Shown: piece after piece, positions 1 to 37,490 of the stretch | How the letters are laid out: every line of letters begins with the position of its first letter | How positions within the stretch are numbered: the first letter of the stretch is position 1 | Source: Isoetes taiwanensis | Lineage: Eukaryota; Streptophyta; Lycopodiopsida; Isoetales; Isoetaceae | Assembly: GCA_021234155.1 (NCBI GenBank) | Contig: JAJEKV010000027.1 | Location: forward strand, 4,154,623-4,218,622 | Direction: 5' to 3' | Length of the DNA stretch: 64,000 nt | Program-made: the position numbers and the translations under genes | The notes under the pieces: model-generated | Databases searched by the model: none | What the model was told of the DNA's origin: nothing | The model's input: the letters and a program-made list of their open reading frames with translations, nothing else

Positions 1-300
1 AATTACTTTCAAACTAATGGACAAGGGTGTCTCCCTTGTCTAACTATCAATATTTACAGGGGTGCCGGTCGTAGCTCTCTGCCTTGACCTGTGCAAGGGT
101 ATTTGGGCCAATATCCACATTATACTTACTGCTTGTACCCCATTGTGGACAACATGGGCCACTTGCTGATGCTTGTACTGCACAAACACATGTGAAGCTA
201 GTATTTATACTGGACCAGTTAGTCTAAAATCTGAGCCGTGAGGCTTATACTAGGTCAAATCCATCTGTTAATTTGATATATATATATATATATATATATA
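1..300. repeat. Left copy of LTR-like direct repeat (cut by window edge)
   Basis: Bases 1-275 recur at 4103-4377 with no difference that I could see by eye, and both copies run into a TA dinucleotide tract (about 25 bp here, about 95 bp in the other copy). The sequence after the tract differs. Near identity at a 4.1-kb spacing suggests a recent LTR retrotransposon or a recent segmental duplication. I found no clear primer-binding site or TG...CA boundary, so the LTR reading is an inference. Confidence 0.6.
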
Positions 301-3300
301 AGCTAAACCCTACCTCCAACCGGAAGGCAAAGTAGAACCCTAGATAGCAATGGGACAGGAGGATCCCTATGCCCTAGGGATCCCCCTGCCAACTGTACTA
401 AAAGTTAGCAAGATACATGAGAAATACCTGTATGGTTTGAGTTCTCTTTGCAGAATTGCAAGGTGGACTTTGAGTTCTGTAAATGCTCCAAAATTCAATG
501 ACTTGTTGGCAGCCAGTGTATCTCCATAGCAGCCATTACAGGATAACTATGTATCCATGAACACGGTTGAACTTTCGATACATCATCATTACTTGAGGCC
601 GAATTTAGGGATACTTGGAGATGAACTCCGTACTTAATTTATGTTGGCAGAATTGCCTATTACTTTAGAAGCCCTAAGGCCACTTTTTGACCAATAGCCA
701 AATTTTGGTCAGTAGCAGACTATTCATATGAATGCCTATCTTATAATATAAGATCTCATCTTATAATATACGACCTCAGAATGAATTTTGAAAAAACCAA
801 TGTACTTACTTTGTTTCCAAGGGATATCCTGTTCTGCCACAGACCATCATTCCTGCTGCAGCCTGTTTCTCTTGCATGCCATCGAGAATCAGTGTTATCT
901 GAGGCTCGGTGGTATCTGTTGTTACATATTACGTTGGTTATCATCGTTACTTCCGCTTTGGATGCAGCATTATATGCACAATCCTTGTTCTATCAAGAGT
1001 TTCATGTACTCCATGCTTTCTTCTATTTTATAGGACATCAGGCTCCGCTGTTCTTCATGCTGTATCCAGCATAGCTGACATCAGTTTCTTGCATTAAACA
1101 TTATGCCAGTCATATCCGACCAATTGGCTAGCCATATCCATCCGATTATTGAGTGGTATGTCCACGACACCTTACTAATAACATACAACCAACTGTTAGT
1201 TCTGAAATGGTTAAATATCCTCTGATAAACAATGTAAACAAAGTAGATATAAAGAATTACTTGGATCATACCCATTCTTAAATTGTTATACTCATAGGAC
1301 TACCAAGGCCCATGCCAGTTATACTGGCATCCTGAAATCACAGAATATATAAACTTGGCCTTAGCCTTATCCAACAGACTTAGCCATTCCAGACCATGGG
1401 CTCTGGAACTTATCAGTCCCTAGACATAGTCTAGGGGAGCCTTGGAAGTCCTTTAACTAAACTTTTTGTAAATGTCATTTATTCTTTTTCCATATTGGCC
1501 AAAAAGCTAGTCCATGACATATCCTAGACCCTTCCATGGCCTATTGTTACACTATTTTAGTACCATCTATAACCTTTTCTAAGAGTTAAGCAATGCTGCT
1601 TTACCTCAGCCTTTTTATACATATGCCAAAAGCTTTATACATCTTACAGATATTCTCGCCTGAAGCCCATAAGAAGACATATCTAGAGTTCAATTCATTT
1701 ATTTTTTTCCCAACATGTTATTATTGTGTTGAAAGCTAATGCATAATCCAAAGCGGCTGCAAAATCCAATTTCTATTACTAATGTACAATCCATGCATAT
1801 CCAAAACTGCTATGCTACAGCAAAAACGAGCCTTAGTATTTGTGGAAACATGTCCATGTAACAATCAGTTTCATTCTTCCAATAATTTTCATTAAGAGAA
1901 CTAGCAGTAGCAATTTTAAAAGGAGCATGGAAATTCTTACTGTCATTCACATCAGAAAAATATGATGTGGTTATTAAGTCTCTTACAGCCATGCCAACCG
2001 ACCGTAAGCTGGCGAAAAAAATTCCCAAATTTTTGCATAATGTGTGTTACCTCAAGTGGTCAAGAAAAGTTCATAGACTTCCATTTAAATAGAAACCAGA
2101 ACTGCTGCTCCATTGCCTTCAGCCCATTGGGCAAACTTCTTTGTGTAACACTGCTCCAAAATATTCATAACCAAATGAAATCTGGAGATGCAAGATTGGT
2201 TACCTGTAACCAAACAGACCCATATTAGCAATAATCTCGGTAATAGGGAGAGGGTTAACAGGTAAGCAGTAATCTTGCATGGCTCATCGCCCTTCACCAA
2301 ATATGTACTTCAAGAACAAATTCTAAGACTAAATACTCTTTATATTGTATACAAACCCGAAATGTAATATGGAGGTTGTTGTCCTCCTTGAATTCCAGCT
2401 TTATTCAAACATTAATTTACTTTAAAATAACCTGATTAAATTGTAGCTCCTGATCAGAGTTGTTGTTGCTTGATTCTCCATGTTGTTGTTGCTTAAAGTA
2501 GCCTGCCACTTTCCAAATGCCTCCATCCTTCTTTGTGATAGCAATCACGTCCATCATATACTTGTCCATTATGCCAAAAGGAATTGCTTGCAAGATCGTG
2601 CATATACCTCATTCTCCTTTTTGCACAAGGCCACGATCCAGCCCTGCGTTCTTGACCAAAGGCATTATCTCTTATTTGCTAGGTTTGCTCTTCATGCCTA
2701 GAGGCGGAAGCGCCATCGCCTAACTGCTGCTTACAAATGCAAAACCGGACTGTAAATACCAGTTTCCTGCCTCTTATAGCCTGCCGGCAGCTGCAAATTC
2801 CGGATTCTGCTTTCCTCTTATCTTCCGACATCATGGCCGGATAAGCTAACCACAGGTGCTAGTTGCTAAATCTGGAGTTTTGCTAGATTCAGAGCTAACT
2901 TAGCACTAACTTGCATGCAACTCCAGTTCCGGCAGCACTCCATTTCGTGGTATGATGCCATATATTCTCTTGTACTGTCGCTTACCACCATCCAATGTCA
3001 TGATTGCTGCCGCCATGTTCGCCGGATTCAGATCCGGAAGTGCAACCCAAGAAGGGTTTCTGCTACAGTGCTATTCGATCCTCTGTTTTCACTTTTTTCT
3101 ATTTTTAATAAGTCATTTCCACATATTTCCAGTTTTGAGCAGATATTTAACCAATGAAGCTCTATTTCTTAACTACAATATGCATTTTTCCACATATGTG
3201 GTACATGTTACCATTTTGTTGAGTTGTTGGCCACCACCTGTATGTATCTGCTGCTTAAGATATTGTTGCACCATGCAACCATAAAATTCCTGTTTACACA

Positions 3301-4041
3301 TACCACTTAAAAATGACGAGTCTTAAGGTTTTAACACCATGCTCAGTTGCTATATAAGTTGTAAAGTGCCAAATCTATTACCTTGTCCAAGATTGCGCCA
3401 GTCCATATGCAGAAGCACTAGGCTAGTTGCACCATCACATCCGTTAGAGTTAGGGCCAAGAGATAAAGCCCCAGAAAATGCAAACACATTATTTTCCCTT
3501 AGGTTCCAATACTCAAAGCCAGGGTGTCTCCCCTTTCATCTTCCTGTTATTATCGCTGAAGAGACTTCAGATAAATGCCCATGGATGTAAAGAATTAAGC
3601 CACATGTCATAATGCCTACATTTCTTCCAAAATATGCCAGCAAGGTTACGAAAGCCATTATTTGTGCACCATTTTACCTTTATACCATATATGCAAGTGG
3701 GCATATACACACGGTTTTTGCACATGGTTTTATGACCATGTATGCCATCCTACCCATCATAGTTCCATGTTTCCCAAACAAATCCTTTTCTTTACCCTAA
3801 GGTGAACCAGGTTCATTTCCTAATCCAAGTTCCAGTTCACAATATCATTGATTTGAGGTGATACAACCATGTAAAACTTGCTTTTTATTTTTACGTCCAT
3901 CAACTGGTCAATTATGCACTAACCTGGAAGTATAGTTTGCTTAGTAGATTTGAACTTGCCATTTTCGCTTGTTCTCCAATAGTGCAACCTATGCCATCGT
4001 AAACCAAATTGTTGATGTCTTAGTGCTACAATCGTCCAAAA
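301..4041. other. Interior between the two direct repeats, non-coding
   Basis: There is no open frame over about 110 codons and no recognisable gag, protease, integrase or RT motif on either strand. If the flanking repeats are LTRs, this would be the interior of a non-autonomous large retrotransposon derivative. A diverged relative of the right repeat's first 100 bases lies at about 3437-3540 (shared gggccaagagata and gccccagaa blocks), so older copies of the same family are present. Confidence 0.4.
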
Positions 4042-4476
<435 letters not shown>

Positions 4477-4487
4477 TTAGGAGTGGC

Positions 4488-4686
4488 TTCTAGAAGCTTC
4501 TTTTATATCTATACCGCCAGATCCTGGCCGTCGGTTTGCTCCCTTGCAATCTCGGCCGTCAGATCTTGTGGCTTCCGGAAGCTTCTTGGCGGAGATGTGG
4601 TAGTTTCCAGAATGTCTTCAAAATTCTAGAAGATGGCAAGAAATTCTAGAACATTCTTCAATGTTCTGAATGCTAGTATATATATG
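4488..4686 (+). promoter_or_regulatory. Heat-shock-element cluster beside a TATA box
   Basis: Two perfect three-unit heat-shock elements (TTCnnGAAnnTTC) lie at 4488-4500 and 4573-4585. A third is at 4644-4656, with two-unit elements at 4605-4612 and 4624-4631. A TATA-like tatatatat follows at about 4677-4685. The order, HSEs then TATA, is that of plant heat-inducible promoters. No convincing long coding sequence follows (the best frame is 75 codons from 4692), so it may drive a non-coding or TE transcript, or be fortuitous. Confidence 0.5.
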
Positions 4687-5656
4687 AAACATTGGGCGTT
4701 GACATGGTTTTGGAGTTATCTATGCTTGTGCCGCAGGTGAGGTTGCCATTCTTTGCATTGCACGCCCTCTCCACAAAATCTATTCTTGATTCTTTGTTCT
4801 CTCCGAATCCAGCGCCAATTTATTATCAGTGGAGCTGTTGGAGCGCCTATGGTGAGCGGATAGTGCCACTTTATATGGTTTTTTTCCCTTCATGCTTCCG
4901 ATTTTTTTGTAGAGTCTGAGGGTTTGGATTTCCGGCTTACATATTCAAGCCCAATAATGTTATTTAAGCTTGGAGCTTTGGAATCAGGGCTGTGGTTTCA
5001 AAGCCCTCAACAGCAGAACCCTTCTGGTGTGCTCGGTTTTTGCTCTATACATGTAATTGTTTTATGCAAATAGCTATGATTTCTGTGTTTTTGCTTGCAG
5101 GAGTTCATAAGATGTCGGCTATGGCGTTACTGAGTATAGACCAGCTTTTCAGAGAAGCACGGCTTTTCTTTGCATTGTTGGATCTGGCTTTAACTCTACA
5201 AATGCATTTGTAGCAAAATATGTAGAAGGCCGGGCATCTGGAGGTCGCTCTCTAAGCATAAGATGCAGGCTTACGAATATTCATCTTGGAATTCGTCTGT
5301 AATTAGGGCATTGAAGAGTGTCGAAAAGCTTAAATCCGGCAAAGAAATTAGTAGGGCTCAAATCCGGCAAAAAATAGGTACGGTTTTTGTTCTTGGAGCT
5401 TTAACAGCTTAGGCTATGGCTTTTTGCGTAGAACAAAATACAGATTGAAAGATGACAAATAGAGCAGCTTAGGCTATGGTTTTTCAGTCCGGGAGGCATG
5501 TGCAAAATGGCTCCACAGACATGTGCAGCTCTGGAAGCGGAAGGTCTGTCAAATTTGTAACAGAAACCAAAGAAATCTACGGCCCTAGTTATTTAAGAGA
5601 TTTTGGATGGGTAGACAGGAAAGGCTAAATTATAAGCGATCCACCCTGGGCCTTCT
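4687..5656. other. No recognisable gene
   Basis: Only short unrelated frames. A cttgcag splice-acceptor-like string ends at 5100, and similar gctatggctttt phrases recur at about 5410 and 5470. I see no gene. Confidence 0.4.
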
Positions 5657-6006
5657 CTATAAACACTCTGTTCCGTCCCTTTTTTCCTTATTCTTCTTTC
5701 CACAGTTTGAACTATTCCGCCTTCGCCTTCCTATTGCTTCTTAATCCCTTTGTCTGCTTTTAATCTCCCCCCCTCCAGATTTCAGCGTTTCTTCATCTTC
5801 TTACTATTAAATACTCTGGATTTTTTTTTTTTTATCCAGATTATTGGGTGCTTCTCTTGCTGTCTCAGAATTTTTAAGGTGAAATGCTCGTTGAATCTGC
5901 AGTTCTAGCCAGATTTCGAGTGTTTCTGTTGATATTTTTGTAGGATTTGGTCCTTTATCTTGCTCAATATTTGGGTATATATCTCTGCTTTGCAGGGTCT
6001 TCTGTT
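5657..6006 (+). promoter_or_regulatory. Candidate pol II promoter and 5' leader with intron
   Basis: CTATAAAC at 5657-5664 is followed by a strongly pyrimidine-rich stretch (about 5670-5790), typical of plant transcription starts and leaders. A possible leader intron runs from the GT in aaggtgaaatg (about 5879) to the acceptor ctttgcag at about 5996. An ATG in good plant context (ATGGCG) lies at 6007. All of this is pattern-based. Confidence 0.35.
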
Positions 6007-6081
6007 ATGGCGGCTACAGCTAAAAGATTGTCTTTGCCAAGCTTATGCCAAAGCTGTATCTATTGGAAACATATAGTTTAA
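6007..6081 (+). pseudogene. Possible truncated gene start (24 codons)
   Basis: An ATGGCGGCT start directly after the candidate leader intron opens a frame with basic and hydroxylated residues (MAATAKRLSLPSLCQSC), as in an organelle targeting peptide, but it stops after 24 codons. Plausible splice donors follow at about 6054 and 6107. I could not join it to any recognisable downstream exon. It may be a 5' gene fragment or chance. Confidence 0.2.
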
Positions 6082-6167
6082 AACTTGCTGAAGACAGCAG
6101 TATTCTAGGTAATGGCCCGACCATGAATTCGATAGGAGGACTGGCTGCAGAGTTTTGTCTGGTGGCT

Positions 6168-6432
6168 ATGAACCTTGTTAAAGAGAGTTTGTGTATGGTC
6201 AATTTCGTGTGTTTTATAGGCAGTAACCAGCGCATTATTTATTCTAATCTAATTGCGATGCCATTTTCTAAAAATGCAGGGTTTCTAAAAGTTGACTATG
6301 AACCTTGTTGAAGAGAGTTTGTGTATGGTCAATTTCGTGTGTGTTTTATAGGCAGTAAGTCCAGCGCATCATTTATTCTAATCTAATTGCGATGCCATTT
6401 TCTAAAAATACAGGGTTTCTAAAAGTTGACTG
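6168..6432. repeat. Tandem duplication, 130-bp unit, two copies
   Basis: The stretch starting atgaaccttgtt at 6168 is repeated from 6298 with only a few substitutions and a small indel. Each copy ends in a cagggtttctaaaagttgac block that contains an acceptor-like tgcag/acag. It lies just downstream of the possible gene start at 6007. Confidence 0.9.
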
Positions 6433-7810
6433 TGGTATGGACCTCGCAGCAGCATAGGCATCCGTAGATCTTATAGGTTACTTGATGTATTTCCTCTGTC
6501 GATGTGAGATTTTGGTATAATCCCCTTGCATTGTCAAAGTGTTGTATCAGTGCTCGGAATATCTTAGATTCAGTTAGCCTAGAAGACAATCATTGTATTC
6601 TTGCCTTGCATTAGGTTCAACTTAGATTCAGAAATTCTTTACATTAGTTCAATATACATTGCCCACACCATTATATGATTCCGTAGACGTTATACCAATA
6701 ATTATGTGCTAATACGTTACAAATGTTGGGACATGACCTGTATTTTTTTTTGTTAACCATGCACGCCCAAGACATTCGATGTGTGGCCATATAATCCTAG
6801 CATTGCGTTTTCCCATTAATGCCCAATGATAGACATTTCTACCTAGGTGCTAGGTGCGGATAAATATATTTTTGCAGGATGGTCCACAAGTATAGTTATG
6901 GTGCATTTGCTATTCACTTCTTCCTCTCTTGCAAACCATAGTCTAAATTTAATATAAAGCTTATTCTTTTGTTGTTTTGTCTCTTTAGATACGAGTCATG
7001 TTGTTAGTATTATCCGTATAAATGTTATTAAAAAAAAATATGGTGAGTGCATTGTTGTTTATAGTCAAAAGCTACGAGAAACACAATTATTTGTCGTCAT
7101 ACATGCAGTCATCATATGAAATTATATAAGCGAAGCTACATTGTATTGAGGCTTATTGTTCTTCATCTCTTCATCACAACCCCACATCCTCACTTCTTTG
7201 TCTCACCCATCCATTGATTTTTAAAAGTAAACAATGGTCCTAACATACATGCTTCAATAATGCCCAAAACATATGCAGTACCTCAACTCAATCCATTGTT
7301 TTTTAAAAATAGAGAATGGTCCTAACTTACATGCTCCAACAATGCCCAAAATATATCACATCATTATGTCGAACCATGAGGCCACTCGTAGTTCAACATA
7401 GCTTCTAAAGAAACACACATTGGCATATACGTATTAACTTTTGACAAACATAGACACACTCTTGGCTCTTGCTTTACACCAATCCAAATATATCAAACTT
7501 TCTCCTTTATTCAAGTAATTTTGAAATACAACAATACTAACATTACAAACTACAGCAGTTGAATCCGCAAATGTTATTTGACGAGGGTGATCCATTTATG
7601 CAATTCTAAAACAACTCAGTTTTCGACAATTAAGATGCCTTATACTGTTACTGACCCAATATTTGACGAATGCATTTATGACAATCTCAAAAAAACCTTT
7701 AAAAACCTAGGACAACCTAGGGGAATAATCTTAAAATATATGAAGTCAAGAACTTCCACTGTAGGAACATGCATCGTAAAAACATGATAAAACAAAAACA
7801 TTGTATTGTA
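6433..7810. other. Intergenic, no gene seen
   Basis: AT-rich with short frames only. An imperfect tandem duplication of about 80 bp lies at about 7205-7370 (shared atccattg, aatggtcctaac and aatgcccaaaa blocks). A partial copy of the unit start of the following array (aggaacatgcatcgtaaa) is at about 7764. Confidence 0.5.
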
Positions 7811-7863
7811 GGAACCTGCTAAAACTGGAACATGCACCGTAGGACGTGCTAAATTTCTTGTAT

Positions 7864-7904
<41 letters not shown>

Positions 7905-7906
<2 letters not shown>

Positions 7907-8457
7907 CTTATGTTTGTCGCGCTTATCCGACCGTCCGTTCGAGATCCTACGGCCCACGTGGCTTTGGGACGTATCCTACGGCTCAGATGGCTTGGGAGAT
8001 TCTATATATATTCTATATAGACGATCCTACGGTACAAGTTAATTTGATCCTGATCGTCGGTTCGAGATCCTACGGCCCACGTTGCTTGGGGACACATCCT
8101 ACGGCCCAGATGGCTTGGGAGTTTCTATATAGACTCTATGTAATTGATCCTACGGCCCAGGTTGCTCTTGATCCTGATCGTCGATCCGAGATCCTACGGC
8201 TCACGTTGCTTGGCACATATCTTACGGTCCACATGGCTTTGGGAATTATATGTAATAGATCCTACGACTCATATTGCTTTTATATGGTGAGATCCTAAGG
8301 CCTTAGGATCGTTGATCGAGTCTAAGATCCTAAGGCTCATGTTGAATGCTCGTCCCTTAAGGAAAGGCTTCTAAAATTTTTTATGTTATTGGGGGGATTC
8401 AAACCCTGGACCTCAACCCCCCAAGCCCCCCACTCTAACCACTAGACCAAGCATTAA
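7905..8457 (-). mobile_element. tRNA-headed SINE-like element, copy 1
   Basis: On the minus strand an A box, TGGTCTAGTGG (8449-8439, fits TRGYNNARNGG), is followed 33 bp later by a B box, GGTTTGAATCC (8405-8395). That is tRNA spacing, so this is an internal pol III promoter. The body that follows consists of repeated phrases around gccgtaggatc and ends near an AT-rich tract at about 7903. Downstream in that direction there is no tRNA gene structure. I read this as a tRNA-derived SINE, although the body repeats are unusual for one. Confidence 0.55.
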
Positions 8458-8513
8458 TTCCATGAATGATTTACGTTTCAGATATACTTAAGGGTAATGT
8501 TCTAATTATAACA

Positions 8514-8620
8514 TTCTAGATAGTTCAAGAAAGTTCTAGAATGTTCTGGAGGCTCTAGAAAGTTCTAAAATCTTCTAGAATGTTCTAGAAAGTTTCAGAA
8601 TATTCTAGAATGTTTTGGAA
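8514..8620. promoter_or_regulatory. Long heat-shock-element-like pentamer array
   Basis: TTC and GAA triplets alternate every 5 bp in two phased runs. Run 1 (8514-8551) has 8 positions, 6 of them exact. Run 2 (8558-8620) has 13 positions, of which 10 are exact TTC/GAA; the other three differ by one base (AAA, TTT, TTT). This is the nTTCnnGAAn architecture recognised by heat-shock factors. Whether it binds HSF is an inference; a simple TTCTAGAA-type tandem repeat would look the same. Confidence 0.5.
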
Positions 8621-9290
8621 GATAAGAGAATCTAGGGGGAATTTAAGAGAATCCTTCCAGAAAGTCCCAAATTCTAGAACATAAGAGAATCTGGGGGGAA
8701 TCTAAGAAATTTCTTCCAGAAAGTTTCAAAAGAATCTACGGGAATGTAAGAGAATCTAGGGAAATACTTCCAGAAAGTTCTAGGGTATTTTGAAAGTCTC
8801 AGAATGTTCCAGAAAGTCTTAGAATGTTCTAAAAAGTTCTAGAATGTAAAGGAATCTAGGAGAATCTAACGCAATCTAAAAAAATCTCATAAAATGTAAG
8901 AGAATCTAAGAAAATATTTACAATCCTAAGGGAATCTCTTAAAATCTAGGGGATCTAAGGGAATCTTCATAATATCTAAGGGAATCTAAGAAAATGTTGA
9001 TGAAATCTTAGAGTATCTAGGGGAATCTTTATAGAATCTCTTTGAATCTCATATAATGTAAGGGAACCTAGGGCAATCTCATAAAATCTAAAGGGATCTA
9101 AGAGAATCTAAGGGGATCTTCATAGAATCTTAAAGAATCTATGGAAATCTAATAGAATCTAGAGGGAATCTTATAAAATTTAGAGGAATCTCCACGAAAC
9201 CTCCAAGAGAACCTTGGTAGAATCTTAGAGAATGTATGAATTTAGAGTATTCTCAAGAGATCCTTTTAGAATGTAGGACACGACAAGAAC
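8621..9290. repeat. GAATCT-rich degenerate minisatellite
   Basis: Irregular reiteration of gaatcta(a/g)gg and agaatcta phrases with no fixed period. An equivalent stretch is at about 9900-10400 in the second unit. There is no open frame. Confidence 0.7.
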
Positions 9291-9365
9291 TTGCACGTAG
9301 GAACATGCTAAAACTCGAACATGCACCATAGGACGCATTAAATTTCTTGTCTCTATATATATTCT

Positions 9366-9768
9366 TATGTTTCGCGCTTATCCGGCCGTCCGTTCGAGAT
9401 CCGACGGCTCACGTGGGTTTGGGACGTATCCTACGGCCCAGATGGCCTGGGAGTTTACATATAATATGTGTACCATGGTCCTACGGTCGAGATTGATTTG
9501 CGGTCCGAGATCCGACGGCTTACGTGGCTTGGGGACACATCCTACGGTCCACGTGGCTTTGGGAATTATATGTAATAGATCCTACGGCTCATATTGCTTT
9601 TATATGGTGAGATCTTGATCGTTGATTGAGTCTAAAGATCCTAAGGCTCATATTGAATGCTCGTTCCTTAAGGAAAGGTTTTTAAATTTTTTTATGTTAT
9701 TGGGGGGGATTCGAACCCTGGACCTCAACCCCCAAAACCCCCCACTCTAGCCACTAAACCAAGCATTA
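9366..9768 (-). mobile_element. tRNA-headed SINE-like element, copy 2
   Basis: Second copy of the same structure: A box TGGTTTAGTGG (9761-9751) and perfect-consensus B box GGTTCGAATCC (9717-9707). The body is shorter than copy 1, having lost one group of the cctacggcccac-type phrases. The two heads differ at several places but both A and B boxes fit consensus. Confidence 0.55.
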
Positions 9769-15795: not shown

Positions 15796-17877
15796 ACAAC
15801 AAAAAGCAAAGAATCGACTTACCATACGAGAGATGGAAACTAAGGAACAAAGATCTAGAAGACTACATCAACAAGTAGAAGAGCAGCAAATAAGTAGAGA
15901 AAAGTGTTCAACTTATAGACTTGCCCGAACGAATACTAGCAGAATCAAAGTGGATTTGCATCATTCTGGAGAATTAAACCACGAATGCAACACATGCGGT
16001 GCTGTTAAATTCAAACATGATGGTACTAAATGTTGTCATAAAGGCAAGGTACATCTTCCACCACTACAAGAAATGCCAAAAATATTCTATGACTTGCGAA
16101 CTGGACATCATCCAAATTCGAAGGAGTTCAAAACACACATTAGGACTTATAATAGTGCATTGGCATTCGCTTCATTTGGAGCTAACATTGAGCAGTTTAC
16201 TCGAGGTCCATATTGTTTCAAGATTCATAGACAAGTATATCATAGAATGGGTCCAACACTTCCCAATCCTGGTGAGAAACCAAAGTATGCACAATTACAT
16301 ATCCTTGACACAGAGTATGCAACTATAGAACGAGCACAAAATCTACAAAATGTAGAATGTGACTCAAAGCTATTAAAGAAATTAGATGAAGAACTAAGAA
16401 TTGTCAATCCACAGCTCTTCAAATGATGCATGAAGCTGAAAATTATGCTCGATTAACAAATGACGCTGCAGATATACGAATGTACTTCAGTAAAGATCGA
16501 ACAGATGTGGACCCGCATAGATATAATGCTGCCTTTGAAAATGGAGTAGCAATAATATCTGTAAATCCTGATGGAGAGCCTCCATTCAATCGAGATATAT
16601 GTATACACTATAGAGGAGGCGATTTGAAGAATGTACCAATCACACATCATTCCATTGATGCCTTAACATATCCAATATTGTTACCTTGTGGAGATGATGG
16701 ATGGAGCATTGGATTGAAAAAAGCAATACAACCTGGAACACTTAATACAACAAGACGTGAAAATGTATCAATGCTTCAATATTACTCATATAGACTAGCA
16801 ACACGGAAAAACAAAGAAGGAAACAACTCAAAGTTTGCTTTCAACCCGTTATTGAGTGCTGGTAAATTAACACAACAGTTCATCGTTGATGCATATGCAA
16901 GAGTTGAAGCTAATAATCTATGCTTCATTCGAACAAATCAAAAGAAATTACGATCTGACATGTATGAGGGCCTCATTGACTATGTCAACCACGAAGCTGA
17001 GCATCAAGGAATGAATTCTGGTAAGTTGGTCATTTTGCCATCAACGTTTAGTGGAAGTATAAGAGCTTTGAACCAAAATTACTAAGACTTTATTGCTCTC
17101 ATAAGAAGATTTGGAAAAGCTGATATATTCATCACATTCACGTGCAACACACATTGGTCAGAAATCAAAGATAATTTGGAATTTGGGCAATCACCTGAAG
17201 ATCGACCTGACTTGGTTTCACGAGTACTTCAAACAAAACTTAAATCATTTTTCCATGATGTGCTCGAGGATCATATATTTGGCAAGCCTAAAGCCTTCAC
17301 ATACACTATTGAGTTTCCAAAAAGAGGACTACCACATTGTCATATGCTACTTATACTAGATCAAATAGACAAAATTAACAACAACAATGACATTGTGCAG
17401 AAATTCCAGGTATGCTATTACTTATTGATAGTCAATTAATAAAGTTTTACATGCCTTCGTACAATTTATGTTATTTTCTTTTCAATTCTTTATTTCACTT
17501 TTTTCCTTTTTACTTATTCATTTTTTCCACAGACCCAATAGACAATCCTGAATTGCATGATATCGTGATGAAACACATGGTGCATGATCCATGTGGATCA
17601 CGATGTCAAGTACGAAATGAGAAAACTGGCTTGACGGAATGTACCAAAGGATTTCCAAAAAAAATTATACATTCCACTGTGATTAAAGCTAATGGTTATC
17701 CAGAATATAGGAGAAGAAAAGGTCCACAACACAAAAAAGGAGACAGGGTTGTTGATAATATGTGATTGTTCCATACAATCCTTACCTCGCACGAAAGTAC
17801 GCAGCACAAATAAATGTCGAGCAATGTTTTAGCGTGAATAGTGTAAAGTCTATTTACAAATACATCCACAAAGGGCA
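15796..17877 (+). pseudogene. Helitron Rep (HUH nickase) pseudogene, main part
   Basis: The frame contains a Cys-rich motif (HECNTCGAV ... KCCHKGKVHLP), a long Helitron-like N domain (VEANNLCFIRTNQKKLRSDM; ILPSTFSGS), then the HUH metal-binding motif GLPHCHML at about 17329-17352 and the active-site Tyr region ending SIYKYIHKGH just before 17878. Breaks: a frameshift at about 16420; a TAA at 17083 after NQNY, where the family usually has Gln (C-to-T change); a GT-AG segment at 17410-17532 that looks like a 123-bp intron but leaves a 1-nt frame problem; and a frameshift at about 17762. The first of the two expected tyrosines (usual pattern YxxKY) reads Ser, which would cripple cleavage. It is interrupted at 17879 by the LTR element. 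Confidence 0.75.
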
Positions 17878-17878
17878 C

Positions 17879-18689
17879 TGATATGGGGGCATGCTAGGGG
17901 GAGTGGTCCGGAAGAAATGAACTAAGGCAATGGGGACATTTGGGAAAATCAATGGTTACAAGGCAAGGGGCAAGATATTTTATGGAACCATTAACGAAAA
18001 AGGAAAGGGGGATATTTTTAAAGGAAAGGAAAAATATCTTAAGCAAGGCAAATATACGAAATAGACTTCGTGCAAATTAAGCTGCAGGGAGGTGATCGAA
18101 ATAGCAAAAGCGGTGACCTTTTTTTGCGGACACAAAGGCCCGATCTGTTATAAAAGGAGACAACGGCCATCCTGAGAGGTTACGGCAGCCAAAAGCTTCG
18201 GTCTTCACTTCCGGCACCTGCGGAACCCAGCAATCCATAAATCATCTATTTCGGCCCAAGCAAGATTGGTCCCTGATCGCTGCTGCATAAATCCGACCCA
18301 TGTCTCTCTGGTTTGGCCGAAGATCTTGTAATCAGGGCTTCTGGATCTGCAGTGATATCTGGCTTTCCAGATAAGCCTGAGATTGAATCGAGTTCTACTC
18401 TTTGGTGATGGTAATTAAGCCCATTCAAGCCCATAACTATTGTAAGATCGGATTGTTCGCAAGATGAAGGGATAATAGGCTGCGACCAACTCCTTTCATT
18501 CTTTTTTCCTTGGGAAATTGCCTTAGTTCTTGTTCTGGATCCGGTTGGGTGGAAACTGGATGCCCAAATCCATTGGTTGCGGAAACCAAAGCTATTGTTC
18601 TTATCAACAGATTGTTCTTCCTTTGTTTTGCCTATACAATTGTTGATCAAAGTAGTTACGTCTTTAAGCTTCTCCCTTAAAGCGTATCA
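17879..18689 (+). repeat. 5' LTR (811 bp)
   Basis: Starts TGATATGGGGG and ends GCGTATCA, so TGATA/TATCA are perfect inverted termini. It is very similar to the 3' LTR but carries two extra pieces, about 15 bp near 17990 and about 30 bp near 18570, absent from the 3' copy. A TATA-like ttataaaagg is at about 18150, a suitable U3/R promoter position. Confidence 0.93.
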
Positions 18690-18691
18690 AG

Positions 18692-18703
18692 TGGTATCAG
18701 AGC
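18692..18703 (+). other. Primer-binding site, initiator Met tRNA
   Basis: TGGTATCAGAGC, two bases after the 5' LTR, is the canonical plant retrotransposon PBS complementary to the 3' end of initiator methionine tRNA. Confidence 0.95.
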
Positions 18704-18726
18704 CTATCGATTCTCAGATCTGATCA

Positions 18727-19968
18727 ATGGCCCAACGCTTCAATGTTACTGAAGCGCAATATCAGCAAGCCTTGTCTAACGCTGGTTACATTGCATCCCA
18801 GTCAGCATTGCCTACGCCTAGCAGTCAGCAAGAGTATGACAGGCAAGTGGAATTGTTGGCTATTCTGTACCGCTTCCTTCCAGATATTTATCAGCAACCT
18901 TCGCAACCTCCTTTGCCTAATGGTCCTCCATTGCCTAATGGTCCTCCACCAGTAACTCCTCCATCGCCACCTAAACTGAGAAAATGGTTAGAGAAAGCAG
19001 ATATGCCGTCTTTCAAAGGGGGAAAGACAAAGCCTGTCAAGGTTGTTAGTTTTATCAGTCAGTGGGAAAAGTTCTTTGAACGAAAAGTGCAAATGTGACG
19101 GGAAAGACTGCAAGCCATGGACACTTATTTGAAAGATCGAGCTCAAGCATGGTGGCAAGGCAGACGAGAATGTGATCCCAGGATTAATAATTGGGAAAGT
19201 TTCAAAACGGCATTTGAAGCGCATTATTTACCCTCTAACTACCACAGTGAGTTACGCAGGGAATGGGATCGTCTGAAACAGGGGGAAACTGAGAGTATTC
19301 AGTCCTATACTTCCAAATTCACTCATTTAGCGGCACTAATAAGGAATCTGGATGGGAAAGAGCTTCTAAGAAAATATGTCAGCGGATGTAGGGATGATAT
19401 TTATGCGGAAATGGAAATATTTTTCCCAAAAGATTTAAACGAAGCCATAAAACTAGCATCCGCAGTGGAGCGAAAACTAGATCCAAAGTCTAGGAAGTTT
19501 GATATTTGGGATGAGGAAACCTCGGATCATGAGGACAAAAAGAGTAGCAAAGAGAAAAATGGAAGTAAGGATTCTTCCAAGAACTTCAAGAGGAAGAGAA
19601 ATAATGGCAATGGTAATGGTTCCGAAAGGAAGCGTGAGGAGGGAAGTCAAATTAGACTGCGGAAGGAAATTAAGGAACCAAAAGGTGGATGCTATAGATG
19701 CGGAGGAAATCATTTTCTAAGGGATTGCCCGTTTGGAGAAGGGGGAATCACAAAAGTTGAACCATCTAAACCTCAAAAGGTTGTACCAATACATGCTATT
19801 GAAGGTCCCAAGCCCGTGGTTGTAGAAATGCATGCTATTGAAGGTCCCAAGCCCGTGGAGGATACACCTGAGACCTCTAAAGCTGCTGAAGATCGGAAGA
19901 AAGGTGAGGAACGGGCAAAGGCTATAGCCAAAGAACGGAGGTGGCTCCAAATTGGCACTATGGGGTAA
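18727..19968 (+). pseudogene. Retrotransposon Gag, one in-frame stop
   Basis: Two open stretches (18727-19098 and 19117-19968) are in the same frame, separated by one TGA at 19096-19098. Together they would give about 413 residues. The N-terminal part is Pro-rich (LPNGPPLPNGPP). A retrotransposon gag domain follows (DRAQAWWQGR ... WESFKTAFEAHYLP). There is then a Lys/Asn/Gly-rich basic stretch and a zinc knuckle CYRCGGNHFLRDC (CX2CX3HX4C, a spacing common in plant Ty3-type Gag). The end has a duplicated HAIEGPKPV motif. The TGA is one C-to-T change from CGA (Arg), so inactivation looks recent. The ORF ends with no pol attached. Confidence 0.85.
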
Positions 19969-20156
19969 AAATCGTAACAAAAAAATTTACATATCTCTAG
20001 GATAAGATTTGTAAGATTTGATTTGATTTGGTTTGTAAGATTTGATTTTTATGTGGAATAAAAATTAAATTATTATGAAAGCATGGTGCATAAGATGTAA
20101 TTTTGAAAGGTGGTAATTGTTGTTATTGGAACAATAGACCTAACAAAATTACGTCA

Positions 20157-20325
20157 GTATCACGGAGATACAATTAAGTAGTACCGCGGAGGTGCGAAAA
20201 ATACTAACGTATCGCGGAGATACCATAGTTTAGTATCGTGGAGATACTATCAATAAGTACCGTGGAGGTACAAACGATAGCGATGTGCCGCGGAGGTACA
20301 AGGATATATCGTACTGTGGAAGTAC
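20157..20325 (+). other. Array of seven covarying 15-nt hairpins
   Basis: Starts at 20157, 20181, 20209, 20233, 20257, 20285 and 20311, spaced 24-28 nt. Each is a 5-bp stem around a 5-nt (A/G)(C/T)GGA loop, for example GTATC-GCGGA-GATAC, GTACC-GTGGA-GGTAC and GTACT-GTGGA-AGTAC. Stem position 4 switches between T-A and C-G, and position 5 between C-G and T-A, with both strands changing together. The two imperfect stems contain only G-T (G-U in RNA) pairs. It lies between gag and the 3' LTR, transcribed with the element. Role unknown; a packaging, dimerisation or protein-binding signal is a guess. Confidence 0.75.
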
Positions 20326-20384
20326 GTGCATATCCGTAACTATTCCTTGAATTTGCAGAAACGCATGGAAGCAATCACGTTAAG

Positions 20385-20449
20385 AAGGGATGGGTCCCTT
20401 GGAGCGTTTCTGAAAGATCGCGGACGATCTTCTTTAAGAAGGGATGGAT
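20385..20449 (+). other. Two further stem-loops and polypurine tract
   Basis: AAGGGA-TGGG-TCCCTT (20385-20400) and AAGATCG-CGGA-CGATCTT (20414-20431) are perfect stems. The second again has a GCGGA core like the array upstream. The purine-rich taagaagggatgg occurs twice (20381-20393 and 20435-20447); the second copy abuts the 3' LTR and is the likely polypurine tract for plus-strand priming. Confidence 0.7.
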
Positions 20450-21215
20450 TGATATGGGGGCATGCTAGGGGGAGTGGTCTGGAAGAAATGAACTAAGGCA
20501 ATGGGGACATTTGGGAAAATCAATGGTTACAAGGCAAGGGGCAAGATATTTTATGGAACCATTGGGGATATTTTTAAAGGAAAGGAAAAATATCTTAAGC
20601 AAGGCAAATATACAAAATAGACTTCGTGCAAATTAAGCTGCAGGGAGGTGATTGAAATAGCAAAAGCGGTGACCCTTTTTTGCGGACACAAAGGCCCGAT
20701 CTGTTATAAAAGGAGACAACGGCCATCCTGAGAGGTTACGGCAGCCAAAAGCTTCGGTCTTCACTTCCGGTACCTGCGGAACCCAGCAATCCATAAATCA
20801 TCTATTTCGGCCCAAGCAAGATTGGTCCCTGATCGCTGCTGCATAAATCCGACCTGTGTCTCTCTGGTTTGGCCGAAGATCTTGTAATCAGGGCTTCTGG
20901 ATTTGCAGTGATATCTGGCTTTCCAGATAAGCCTGAGATTGAATCGAGTTCTACTCTTTGGTGATGGTAATTGAGCCCATTCAAGCCCATAACTATTGTA
21001 AGATCGGATTGTTCGCAAGCTGAAGGGATAATAGGCTGCGACCAACTCCTTTCATTCTTTTTTCCCTGGGAAATTGCCTTAGTTCTTGTTCTGGATCCAG
21101 TTGGGTGGAAACTGGATGCCCAAATCCAATCAACAGATTGTTCTTCCTTTGTTTTGCCTATACAATTGTTGATCAAAGTAGTTACGTCTTTAAGCTTCTC
21201 CCTTAAAGCGTATCA
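20450..21215 (+). repeat. 3' LTR (766 bp)
   Basis: Same TGATA...TATCA termini as the 5' LTR, with few substitutions and two deletions relative to it. One of these (ccaaatccaatcaacag) removes about 30 bp. High similarity between the LTRs indicates a recent insertion. It is immediately followed by the GGCAC target-site duplicate. Confidence 0.93.
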
Positions 21216-21466
21216 GGCACGATCGTGCATGTATCAAAATCACTAATGAACCAACCTCAAATGTCATGGCAACATATAATTGGGATGAAGTGCAAGCATA
21301 CATTGATGCAAGATATATATCTATACCAGAAGCAATTTGGAGGTTGAATTCATATAAAATGAACGACAACTCTCATACTGTCTATCGACTACCAGTACAT
21401 CTTTCAAACAAACAAACGATATACTATGAAGAAGGACAAGAAAAACAAATATTCATTCAATCAATA
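21216..21466 (+). pseudogene. Helitron Rep continuation after the LTR element
   Basis: The frame resumes DRACIKITNE..., then IDARYISIPEAIWRLNSYKM and YRLPVHLSNKQTIYY, the well-known Helitron segment after the nickase Tyr region (RY(I/V)SxxEAxWR ... LPVHLxNxQ). It ends with a TGA after IFIQSI. The helicase part expected next is absent, so the Helitron is truncated or diverges here. Confidence 0.75.
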
Positions 21467-22322: not shown

Positions 22323-25300
22323 GTGCTAAATATGTTTAGAGCGGCTTATACAGTGCTTGTAAAGAGCTGGTCATTTAATGATTATGAACATGTAGTAGAC
22401 TTGATTGATTTGGTAGGCTGCACTGCAATAACTAAACAGTTATATTGGAATGACCATACATGCCAAGGTTTTATTGCTTGTATTGGGGACAGCTTGCACT
22501 TATCTATAATTGAGGAAATGAAACGTAGCCCATTTTTTGGTGTGCAAGTTGATGAGTCGACAGATGTGGCAACTCAACAACATCTTGTGTTATGTGTCAC
22601 TTATTTGGAGCAATGGTGGCCAGCCTAAGAATAAGTTTTTGACAATTTTAAGGGTCGGGAAAGCTAATCCAACCACATTACATGACTCCTTAGTAAGCCA
22701 TCTTAAAGAAGCTGGTCTTGATATGACTAAGTTAATGGGATTTGGGTCTGATGGAGCATCTACAATGATAGGAAAGAAGAAAGGTGTCGCTGCTAGATTG
22801 AAGGCTTCACATTTCTATATGACTAGTATCCACTGCATTGCTCATCGTACAAATTTGGTCGTGCAAGATGCAGCAAAGGGATCAAATATGAAATGGATAG
22901 AAGATATTGAAAATATGGTCAATTCTATTGCTGCTCATTTCTTTTGCAGTTGAATGAATATACATGTGCAGAAGGGATTCAAGAAACACGTTGGTTGAGT
23001 AGACATAGTGCCAATGCTAAGCTATGTGAGGATTTGCCCGCTGTGCTAGAATATTCAAGGATGGAAAATCATGATATTTTTGAAAAGCTTGCTGATTTTA
23101 AGATGATCTACCTGCTACACTTTTTGGCAGACATTCTTGGAGGTCTCACAATAGTTAGTAAATTGTTTCAAGCTCGTAGTGTTGATATAACTATTATAGC
23201 AGAGCATGTTACAAATGTTATCAAAGGTATTCAAACAACACATAACAACCAACACATAACAACCATTGACATTAACAACCAACACATAACTACCATTCAC
23301 ATTAATTAACACAACCATTGGGTCCAACACATTTAAATTAAAATCCTCCTTAAACCCCATTTAGTTTGGGTGCATATTCACACGGGGGGTGACTCCGGGC
23401 AACGAGAGCTGTTGGATAGGCATATTCACCCCTTATTCCTTAATTTACACCGTACGTAAAGTTCCTCATTTGTGGGGTATGCAAGTACAAAATTTGCTAT
23501 ACTGTATAACAAGATTCGCAAAATACTATAAGATTTCAAGCGGAATACTATATGGTGTTGATTTTGTACGTACAAAATACAATTATGAGGGCTCTCGCTG
23601 CCCTACGTCACCCCCCGTGTGAATATGCACCCAAACCAAAGGGGGTTTAAGGGGGATTTTAATTTAAATGTGTTGGACCCAATGGTTGTGTTAATTAATG
23701 TCAATGGTAGTTATGTGTTGGTTGTTATGTGTTGGGGGATTTAATTTTTATATGTTGAATGTTAATGGTTTGTGTTGCAAAAAAATTTTTTTGGCCCCTT
23801 CGGGGCCTTAGGGACGTCTCACCCCCCCCCCCCTTCCCCCCGCCCCGGTGTGACAAAAATTTTAGAATTCAAACCAGAAAAAAACTAGAATTTATTTGAG
23901 GCTTTCATCACCTGTAGCTTTTGAATTTGATCACTATAAAACAAATAGAACATAAGTAAAAGTTACCATAAAGATAGAGCAGATTGATCCCATTATTTTG
24001 AAAGTCATAAAGTTTGCAACACCCATACACAAACATTTTTCAACTGGAATTTAAGAGCAGCCTTTGGCCTCCATGGATTCTTGTGGGGAGAAACCAAAGT
24101 GGGAAACTTTTTTGCTTGTTAGCACAAGGATCTAGAAGCCTTGGAATTTGCTTAATAACTGCCTCAAAATCTAAAAATGCATGGTAATTTTTTGCTAGCT
24201 TCATTCGGAATGAGCTATAAAACAATATCCAATAGCGCAATCCTTTATTAATCAGCTGGTAGGATGTGAAAGCCTACCAAACCCGGCCGAAAAATTGCTG
24301 TTTTAGCATAGATAACTTAACCAAATATATCCATATCATATATTATCAAAAAGATCTCGGAGAGAGCTTTCCAACGCAATAAAAATCATCTCAAACAGAG
24401 CTCTGGATCAAAAGTTATGATAAGAAATGTGTTGCCGGCGGGGAAACTGCACTACATGCGCCCTTGAAGCTCTTCACGTGCCCATTATGCACCACACACA
24501 CAAAAAGAGGGCTTTTGTTGTGAGCCATTGGTTGTTGACCATTGGAAAAAAACGCTAAAATCATTTGGCCCTTCATGTGCCCATTATGCACCACACGCAC
24601 AAAAAATGGGCTTTTGTTGTGAGCCATTGGTTGTTGACCATTGAAAAAAAAGGCTAAAATCAATGGCTCAGAAATGGTGCACTCTACATGTACGCATTAG
24701 TACATCCATTTGAATACATCACGAAATCATAGGAAAACCTTAGTGAAAAGCGTACAAAAACACAAAGAAAACCCCCTGTTATTATGCTATATATTCAAAC
24801 TTATTACATTGCTGAGCCTGAGGCAGATTTGAATGCAAGTCAACATGATTCAAAGGGTTATCCCATAGTTCCTGATTATGGTCCTCCAGGTGGCTAGCCA
24901 GCGGCCTTAAGAACTTCCATACGTGGGGATGAGTATAGGACCTTCAAACTATCAAGGCAAATTGATGGGACAGATTTGGAAATTGCCTTAACACATCAAA
25001 AGGCATATGCAAAGGCTGTTTGTGACTATTTGCAAGTCTGATTCGAAGACACATCAATAATGAAGAATTTTAATATTCTATCTCCTTTACTTATATCAAG
25101 GGCTAGCAGACCAAGAAAGTTTGGTGAGGATGGTTTAGAAGAATTAATTACCTTTTATGGAACACCACAGAAAGTCAAGGGATCTGGGGAGAAGGCATTG
25201 CCTTTAATTGGCAAAAGTGTTGAGGGCTGAGTATGCAGATTACAAAATCCATGCTTTAGCTAATTGGCAGCATAAGAGCATGGAAGATGTTTGTGCTATG

Positions 25301-35944: not shown

Positions 35945-37490
35945 GTTGTTGTGTTTTCAACACCATATAATATTCCGCTTGAAATCTTATAGTATTTTAC
36001 GAACTTATTATACAGTATAGCAAATTTTGTACTTGCATACCCCACAAATGAGGAACTTTACGTACGGTGTAGATTAAGGAATAAGGGGTGAATATGCCTA
36101 TCCAACAGCTCTCGCTGCCCTACGTCACCTCCCGTGTGAATATGCACCCAAACCAAAGGGGGTTTAAGTGGGATTTTAATTTAAATGTGTTGGACCCAAT
36201 GGTTGTGTTAATTAATGTCAATGGTAGTTATGTGTTGGTTGTTAATGTCAATGGTTGTTATGTGTTGGGGGATTTAATTTTTATATGTTGGATGTTAATG
36301 GTTTGTGTTGCAAAAATTTTTTTTTTTGCCCTTCTTCGGCCTTAGGGACGCCACCCCCCGTGTGACAAAATTTTTAGAATTCAAACCAGAAAAAAACTAG
36401 AATTCATTTGAGGCATTCATCACTTGTAGCTTTTGAATTTGATCACAATAAAACAAATAGAACATAAGTAAAAGTTACCATAAAGATAGAGCAGATTGAT
36501 CCCATTATTTTGAAAGTCATAAAGTTTGCAACACCCATACACAAACATTTTTCAACTGGAATTTAACAGCAGCCTTTGGCCTCCATGGATTCTTGTGGTG
36601 CGAAACCAAAGTGGGTAAGAGCATGTTAGGGCCTACATGTTTTGGAAACTACCTGGAAAAATACTCTGGGTAGTCAAAGATGATGATATATTTGAGTTCT
36701 TAACATCTTCTTGACATCACAAAGTACCTTACAACATGTATGTACTACTACTCTTGAACATAACACAATTTCTTTTAGTCAATCTTGTAGTCTAGGTACT
36801 TTAAAATACAATTATGTACTTGCACAGAAGTACACAGAAAAGTACCTTTTTGGTAATTTTTTATGTAGGCCCTAACATGCTTTCACCCAAGTGGGAAACT
36901 TTTCTGCTTGTTAGCACAAGGATCTAGAAACCTTGGAATTTGCTTAATAACTGCCTCAAAATCTAAAAACGCATGGTAATTTTTTGCAAGCTTCATTCGG
37001 AATGAGCCATAAAACAATATCCAATAGCGCAATCCTGTATTAATCAGCTGGTAGGATGTGAAAGCCTACCAAACCCGGCCGAAAAATTGCTGTTTTAGCA
37101 TAGATAACTCAACCAAACATATCCATATCATACACTATCAAAAAGATCTCGGAGAGAGCTTTCCAACGCAATTAAAATCATCTCAAAGAGATCTCTGGAT
37201 TAAAAGTTATGATAAGAAATGTGTTGCCGGCGGGGAAACTGCACTACATGCACCCTTCAAGCCCTTCATGTGCCCATTATGCACCACACACACAAAAAAG
37301 AGGCCTTTTGTTGTGAGCCATTGAAAAAAAAGGCTAAAATCAATGGCCCTTCATGTGCCCATTATGCACCACACGCACAAAAAAGGGGCTTTTGTTGTGA
37401 GCCATTGGTTGTTGACCATTGAAAATCAGAGGAAAACCTTAGTGAAAAGCGTACAAAAACACAAAAACCCCCTGTTATTATGCTACATAT
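35945..37490 (+). mobile_element. Foldback element, copy 2, core inverted
   Basis: The right arm and right part (about 36108-37490) are collinear with copy 1 at 23592-24797. The core (35950-36107) is the reverse complement of copy 1's core, and the left arm is missing. This is the result expected from recombination between the inverted arms. It interrupts the second LINE's RT. A MITE is inserted at 36613-36888, absent from copy 1. Confidence 0.75.
36613..36888. mobile_element. MITE, 276 bp, inside foldback copy 2
   Basis: Terminal inverted repeats of 26 bp with two mismatches (GGGTAAGAGCATGTTAGGGC and GGGTGAAAGCATGTTAGGGC as outermost 20). Copy 1 (about 24100) has the empty site ccaaagtgggaaac. 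The flanks repeat aagtggg, so the TSD is 4 bp (AAGT) or 7 bp (AAGTGGG) depending on where the element is taken to start. No coding capacity; family not assigned. Confidence 0.9.

Follow-up and report, generated by a model that had tools for sequence, protein, structure and literature searches.

A GGA hairpin loop recurs on different stems across gag-bearing and gag-less members of an LTR retrotransposon family of Isoetes taiwanensis and may form a multivalent RNA tag

The window analyzed here is a stretch of 64,000 nucleotides from Isoetes taiwanensis (contig JAJEKV010000027.1, forward strand). It holds an LTR element in which gag is the sole coding region; besides gag, the list of open reading frames shows no frame of 150 aa or more anywhere in the element. 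Seven short hairpins form an array between gag and the polypurine tract (PPT), and further hairpins lie in U5, in the 3'UTR and just before the PPT. The features are as follows.

17879-21215, plus strand: LTR element, whole (LTR pair, target-site duplication, primer binding site and PPT; gag the sole coding region)
17874..17878, no strand: left target-site duplication GGCAC, directly 5' of the 5' LTR
17879..18689, plus strand: 5' LTR, 811 nt
18149-18157: TATA-like motif in the 5' LTR
18540..18560, plus strand: U5 hairpin 1, TCCGGTT-GGGTGGA-AACTGGA, with one G-U and a 7-nt loop
18573..18589, plus strand: U5 hairpin 2, TTGGTT-GCGGA-AACCAA
18692..18703, plus strand: primer binding site (PBS), TGGTATCAGAGC
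18727..19968, plus strand: gag region with a Retrotrans_gag domain and an in-frame TGA at 19096
19117-19968: Retrotrans_gag domain match
19690-19728, plus strand: Gag knuckle CX2CX3HX4C
20039..20071, plus strand: 3'UTR hairpin, 14-bp stem, GTGGA loop
20157..20325, plus strand: array of seven RYGGA hairpins of 15 nt each
20382-20393: second polypurine stretch, AAGAAGGGATGG
20414..20431, plus strand: pre-PPT hairpin, AAGATC-GCGGAC-GATCTT
20436..20449, plus strand: polypurine tract, AAGAAGGGATGGAT
20450..21215, plus strand: 3' LTR, 766 nt
21216..21220, no strand: right target-site duplication GGCAC, directly 3' of the 3' LTR

The two LTRs differ by 12 substitutions at 766 aligned sites, plus 45 gap columns; the 93% identity given by BLAST includes the gaps. 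At 21120-21130 the 3' LTR lacks the stretch that carries U5 hairpin 2 in the 5' LTR (18573-18605). The primer binding site is presumably of the Met-tRNA type. Knuckles of this kind usually have the form CX2CX4HX4C, and that of the Gag described here is one residue shorter. A 39-bp tandem repeat (2.1 copies) lies within the gag region at 19779-19858. The organization recalls the TR-GAG elements of plants, which the excerpted text of PMC8704663 describes as non-autonomous, with two LTRs and gag as sole coding region. The window element has the same LTR pair with target-site duplication, PBS, PPT and gag only, and differs in that its gag frame is interrupted by the TGA rather than being a single open frame; it is an element of the TR-GAG kind with a frame broken in this copy. 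An earlier note on this DNA had called the element Gag-only; in the window copy the gag frame carries this stop, and gag-less relatives, described below, keep the array and share the cis elements. A hairpin array goes unmentioned in the excerpt on TR-GAG, and the titles and abstract openings of open papers likewise yielded no hairpin array in TR-GAG and no such elements in Isoetes.

A hairpin scan confirmed what the earlier note had reported of the array, namely seven 15-nt units, spaced 24-28 nt apart, that share an RYGGA loop on differing 5-bp stems. The units start at 20157, 20181, 20209, 20233, 20257, 20285 and 20311 (spacings of 24, 28, 24, 24, 28 and 26 nt). Five of the seven are fully Watson-Crick; units 2 and 6 have a single imperfect pair each, T-G in the former and G-T in the latter, both of the G-U type as reported. 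Units 1, 3 and 4 carry T-A at pair 4 and units 2, 5, 6 and 7 carry C-G, while pair 5 changes on both sides to T-A solely in unit 7. The further stem with GCGGA at 20414-20431 was also present; its loop can be read as 4 or 6 nt, never as 5 nt.

On the plus strand of the window there are only two other RYGGA hairpins with 5-bp stems (18574 and 20048), both within the LTR element, and the minus strand has two, both outside it. With any NNGGA pentaloop admitted, the element holds 9 hairpins against 0.30 expected (maximum 2 in 200 dinucleotide shuffles), and the window outside the element shows no excess (5 and 2 against 3.2 and 3.1 expected). Hairpins of at least 5 bp with a 5-nt loop of any sequence number 10 in the 311-nt region, for a background mean of 2.7 and maximum of 13 in 311-nt windows. 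The unusual feature of the array is its shared loop, not 5-nt-loop hairpins as such. The units are 79% alike and the linkers no more alike than shuffled ones (similarity 0.463 versus 0.457, with 215 of 500 shuffles reaching the observed value), where a tandem minisatellite would have similar linkers too.

We searched the genome (1,658,258,908 bases in 1110 contigs) with the array and its neighbors (20100-20450) as DNA query. The best 40 of 739 candidates, window included, were listed, and the other 39 matches were retrieved as 38 loci; we also retrieved 20 array stretches picked from pattern matches, 8 flanks, 17 stretches behind gag copies and one more. A pattern of two neighboring units had 747 matches in the genome, its reversed control none. 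Measured on the longest piece of at least 100 nt, median identity to the window was highest in the array (91.6%, 38 loci), in leader and gag (91.1%, 24 loci) and in the UTR (90.5%, 30 loci), lower in the stretch before the 3' LTR (84.7%, 35 loci) and lowest in the LTR (73.7%, 34 loci), the values for the array and its neighbors being biased upwards by their place in the query and gag and LTR lying outside it. A gag-seeded search, of which the best 40 of 290 candidates were listed, gave 20 loci new to the array-seeded set. The 17 that we retrieved had the array at most 431 nt from gag in 16 cases, and two of the three others (on contigs C46 and C204) had two-unit pattern matches nearby. The number of units varies from about 3 to 9 between subfamilies in a filter-based count.

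We aligned 49 copies and took the units by column, with pairing not required. Among 343 aligned units, 314 had 15 letters; 294 of these had five canonical pairs, and of their 1570 pairs in total 1547 were canonical. Pairs 4-12 and 5-11 ranked first and second in covariation among the 105 column pairs. Pairs 1-15, 2-14 and 3-13 were nearly invariant, with ranks of 71, 91 and 103, and the outer GTA/TAC is nearly fixed. When 53 of the 56 distinct units were taken, pairing was seen in 95.5% of cells and an alteration on both sides in 25, against 8.4 after shuffling; with the kinship of rows left in, 0 of 500 shuffles reached the observed 25. On the same units and with the same kinship, neither the pairs with a double change (2 versus 2.3) nor the further pair types (7 versus 7.3) were in excess, these two counts being reached by 496 of 500 shuffles. 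Pair 4 was also counted genome-wide with the rest of the unit held fixed and reversed patterns as controls: T-A occurred 898 times (control 2) and C-G 705 times (control 34). The one-sided types stood near background, since C/A was found 16 times (control 4) and T/G 13 times (control 14).

On a tree of the flanks built without the array, changes of state between T-A and C-G numbered at least seven in unit 1, four in unit 5 and one in unit 7; the tree is weak, being built on 331 of 854 columns of a gappy alignment and having 25 of its 46 inner branches open, and these counts could be too high if units or copies have converted one another. At one locus outside the aligned sets (L092), pair 1 of one unit is A-T instead of the usual G-C. 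In close copies stems were not significantly better conserved than linkers (0.936 versus 0.908, p 0.29). Over 41 copies, the cells comprised 1319 Watson-Crick pairs, 67 G-U, 15 A-C, 15 others and 19 gaps, with pair 3 of unit 6 accounting for 32 of the 67 G-U cells. G-U cells are in excess, as would be expected, but pair 5 often borders a CpG, and decay there could add to their number.

The earlier note had read the paired changes and G-U wobbles as selection on RNA structure. Covariation among genomic copies supports this reading, although the note's own arguments are weaker than they look: double changes within one copy are weak evidence because each can come from a single duplication, and the two G-U pairs of the window array are weak evidence as well, that of unit 2 being present in the window copy only and that of unit 6 being common to 32 of the 41 aligned copies; at pair 4, moreover, the T/G form is at its control level genome-wide. 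The paired changes hold across copies, but at two of the five pairs only. The genomic copies support an RNA structure of the array with a signal confined to these two pairs, and it is very probable that the hairpins are under selection at the RNA level.

Predicted folding was more varied. The region 20140-20450 beat all 100 shuffles on both strands (z -4.6 on plus, -6.3 on minus), scores that do not pick a strand because palindromes fold on both. The first half of the array folded at shuffle level (z -0.49) and the second half well (z -4.12), although units 5 and 6 take other pairing partners in that fold. The 3'UTR hairpin piece gave z -4.95, the pre-PPT piece was not unusual (z -1.01), and the minimum-energy structure of a 75-nt U5 piece did not contain its two hairpins (z -0.38).

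The finding is wider than the array, as GGA loops also sit on unrelated stems in U5, in the 3'UTR and before the PPT. We counted these hairpins strictly over 39 loci (the 38 array-seeded loci and the window), where the array, having seeded the search, is present in 39/39. U5 hairpin 2 was found in 34 loci, the pre-PPT hairpin in 32 and U5 hairpin 1 in 27, a looser count of 31 for the last including an unpaired look-alike; 33 loci have the 3'UTR hairpin with an NNGGA loop and no fewer than 5 bp. U5 hairpin 1 is missing in most gag-less loci. At 49 sites, many of them related and with both LTRs counted, its pairs were 278 Watson-Crick, 60 G-U, 3 A-C and 2 others; in the 3' LTR of the window (21096-21116) its G-T pair is replaced by A-T, and the most conserved stretches of U5 include the 17-nt windows starting at 18534-18542, where it lies. 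The columns of U5 hairpin 2 are conserved above average (0.767 versus 0.620; window rank 18 of 223), and its exact sequence TTGGTTRYGGAAACCAA matches the genome 302 times against 5 for the reversed control. Four loci with little gag, L029, L036, L037 and L043, have it twice, 22 nt apart. In a variant of the 3'UTR hairpin, TTCTTTAT-GCGGA-ATAGAGAA versus ATTTTTAT-GTGGA-ATAAAAAT, two pairs are changed on both sides.

Among 5-nt-loop hairpins present in at least 2 of 37 element bodies, NNGGA had the most stem clusters on the plus strand (7 of 69, the next class having 4), at least one of the seven being an array variant. The minus strand had no NNGGA clusters; its top loop class, NNCAC with 5 clusters, consists for the most part of these palindromes read on the opposite strand. 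Two relatives, L067 and L074, hold 30 and 13 NNGGA hairpins against 0.75 and 0.44 after shuffling, and reversed NNGGA hairpins on the minus strand number 0 in both and in the window element. The hairpin arms of L067 (9.5 kb) include CTTGTC, TTGACT, CTTTAT, TGTATC, AGTACC, CGTACT and GGCTAC, and several of its loops are TGGGA or TTGGA, departing from RYGGA; U5 hairpin 2 is absent there. To judge from sequence, a motif defined by its loop, set on differing stems and kept in a single orientation, is the trace that would be expected of RNA recognition.

Gag was found in 25 of the 39 loci and the knuckle CX2CX3HX4C could be read in 22; a gag frame of 396-407 aa was present in 6 of the 25 gag-bearing copies examined. 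In 14 of the 38 retrieved loci less than 500 nt of gag is left, yet the array is present; one of these, L009, has no PBS match and may be truncated. In the 12 loci measured, L067 and 11 of these 14, ORFs in the stretch from PBS to array do not exceed 74 aa. Some gag-less relatives stand in tandem as LTR-internal-LTR with a period of about 1.9-2.3 kb (L067 at 1-9501, L074, L029 and C235:433005-448188).

The loci examined in this genome contained no pol-bearing partner. A frame upstream of the array on contig C79 (L068), integrase-like of the gypsy type by eye, was considered as a partner; it has no Pfam match. A 2511-base query from this frame to the array gave 41 other genome matches (40 of 3982 candidates scored), and we assign the frame to another element because 40 of the 41 end between 1121 and 1155; the other is a 102-base piece. 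On contig C963, the one gag-found locus with a distant array, the array lies before the 3' LTR (L092), about 5 kb farther on; across C963:11700558-11708047, 7.5 kb separate the U5 hairpins, gag lying towards one end and the array towards the other. Neither an array nor a long frame was seen in the stretch that follows gag (L084), and to judge from the parts read at either end a nested insertion seems likelier than a pol. In viral contigs, no relative was confirmed by a gag protein search and none by the two-unit pattern.

Our interpretation starts from what was observed: one loop shared between stems, its sense orientation, the covariation and the retention of hairpins without gag. We propose that the element RNA bears about eleven short hairpins (the seven of the array, a pair in U5, and one each in the 3'UTR and before the PPT) that would act as a multivalent recognition tag. 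The stems differ, and each loop ends in GGA, mostly as (N)RYGGA, directly before the 3' arm; a protein would read the loop, the stem would merely hold it open, and the many copies would provide avidity. The likeliest reader would be the nucleocapsid part (the CCHC knuckle) of Gag from gag-bearing members, with the tag as a packaging signal that brings RNAs of gag-bearing and gag-less members into particles and with pol supplied by a separate partner. Gag-less members keep the hairpins and would therefore need recognition in trans. The gag frame has its first ATG only 23 nt beyond the PBS, so that a packaging signal would hardly fit in between; the candidate sites are U5 and the 3'UTR, where the hairpins lie. 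We give a probability of about 0.5 to a multivalent, loop-read RNA tag that is probably a Gag packaging signal acting in trans. Taken by itself, the choice of Gag as reader and of packaging as purpose strikes us as evenly poised; Gag is the most economical reader given the single knuckle, the sites of the hairpins and their retention without gag. A more tentative extension is that the tag might be coded in the loop and indifferent to the stems, with about ten GGA-loop hairpins, distributed over leader and 3'UTR, letting one Gag recognize gag-bearing and gag-less members in trans; new hairpins would then arise on new stems, and the tag would evolve by gaining loops. The suggestion of the earlier note that a Gag or a host protein reads the signal thus survives, and its interpretation as a whole is partly supported.

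Plant cold-shock proteins with CCHC knuckles exemplify the main rival, a host RNA-binding protein (a factor of stability, export or translation) that reads the GGA loops, in which case the tag would set RNA fate and not packaging. Such a reader would suit the gag-less members that retain the hairpins and the placing of hairpins in leader and 3'UTR, like regulatory sites, and there is precedent for other proteins reading GGA hairpin loops, as RsmE does on RsmZ in the excerpt of PMC4005645. The window outside the element has no hairpin excess, however, and so gives no sign of a general host signal; we hold this account to be rather unlikely. A protein reader would be unneeded if the hairpins helped the RNA to dimerize or the strands to transfer during reverse transcription. 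Those in U5 and ahead of the PPT lie close to the transfer sites, as would suit this role; the palindromic arms could, by their letters, pair between molecules. RYGGA loops are not self-complementary, though, so that loop-loop kissing is not expected, and the fixed part is the loop letters, which makes this role very improbable.

Two further explanations would dispense with RNA recognition. According to the earlier note, free loss of units would mark a simple palindromic minisatellite, and the unit number does vary between subfamilies. Slippage, together with template switching by reverse transcriptase that copies arm onto arm, would produce double changes in one step and without selection, which agrees with T/G forms of pair 4 at control level and with stems of close copies conserved no better than linkers. 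What it leaves unexplained is one loop on several unrelated stems, all in sense orientation. Unit-specific stems are moreover kept across copies (the G-T of unit 6 in 32/41, the T-A at pair 5 of unit 7), and U5 hairpin 1 is rich in G-U yet paired; we regard a minisatellite as improbable. The least probable account makes the units DNA sites, enhancer or silencer, of a dimeric protein to which the dyad would belong. The almost fixed outer GTA/TAC would fit such sites, but the GGA at the center is asymmetric and fixed while the inner arm bases covary, similar centers occur on unrelated arms and in sense orientation in the sequences tested, and the array lies outside the LTR.

Plant Ty3/gypsy elements have hypervariable tandem repeats in their 3'UTR, short units which, like the array, follow the last gene and precede the 3' LTR; the Isoetes units differ in being hairpins whose arms change in pairs and whose loop also occurs in U5. 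To our knowledge no CsrA occurs in plants, and an Rfam search of 17800-21300 gave four matches up to E 5, none at gathering score and none of the CsrB/RsmZ family. Excerpts of PMC4005645 describe RsmZ as a multivalent RNA with several hairpins whose GGA, in loops of 5-8 nt, is read by RsmE. Multivalent GGA-loop hairpins are thus common to CsrB/RsmZ and the element, the loops being A(N)GGAX in that excerpt and mostly RYGGA in Isoetes. The HIV-1 leader has many nucleocapsid sites and a GGAG element (PMC7395439, in excerpt), and as far as that text goes retroviral packaging signals also place several short GGA elements close together, suiting many Gag molecules; the Isoetes sites differ in lying mostly in the 3'UTR as a regular array, and they are putative Gag sites of a plant element. 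The hairpin RNA would work like RsmZ-type RNAs and like retroviral leaders; by the Rfam search it does not belong to the former, and as to the transcript hairpins that a retroviral-type signal would have, covariation supports those of the array and predicted folds are mixed. TRIM/LARD and Cassandra elements form tandem LTR-internal-LTR arrays according to the excerpted part of PMC7215508. The gag-less relatives resemble them in being non-coding, as found in the 12 loci measured, and in some cases tandem, whereas the window element has LTRs of about 800 nt and repeated GGA hairpins.

For plant retrotransposons, little is known of how a Gag selects the RNA that encodes it or of how elements lacking pol or gag are carried. 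Here one candidate code is common to many copies, both gag-bearing and gag-less, which makes loop, stem and number separately testable. If the proposed tag is real, it would offer a cis signature showing which non-autonomous families rely on the same proteins.

Other mobile sequences may share the window. At 16423-17085, just 5' of the LTR element, an open frame contains a Helitron helicase-like N-terminal domain (PF14214). Farther on, a 95% inverted repeat (23249-23561 and 35957-36268) is adjoined by direct repeats at 23591-24647 and 36108-37425, perhaps a mobile element.
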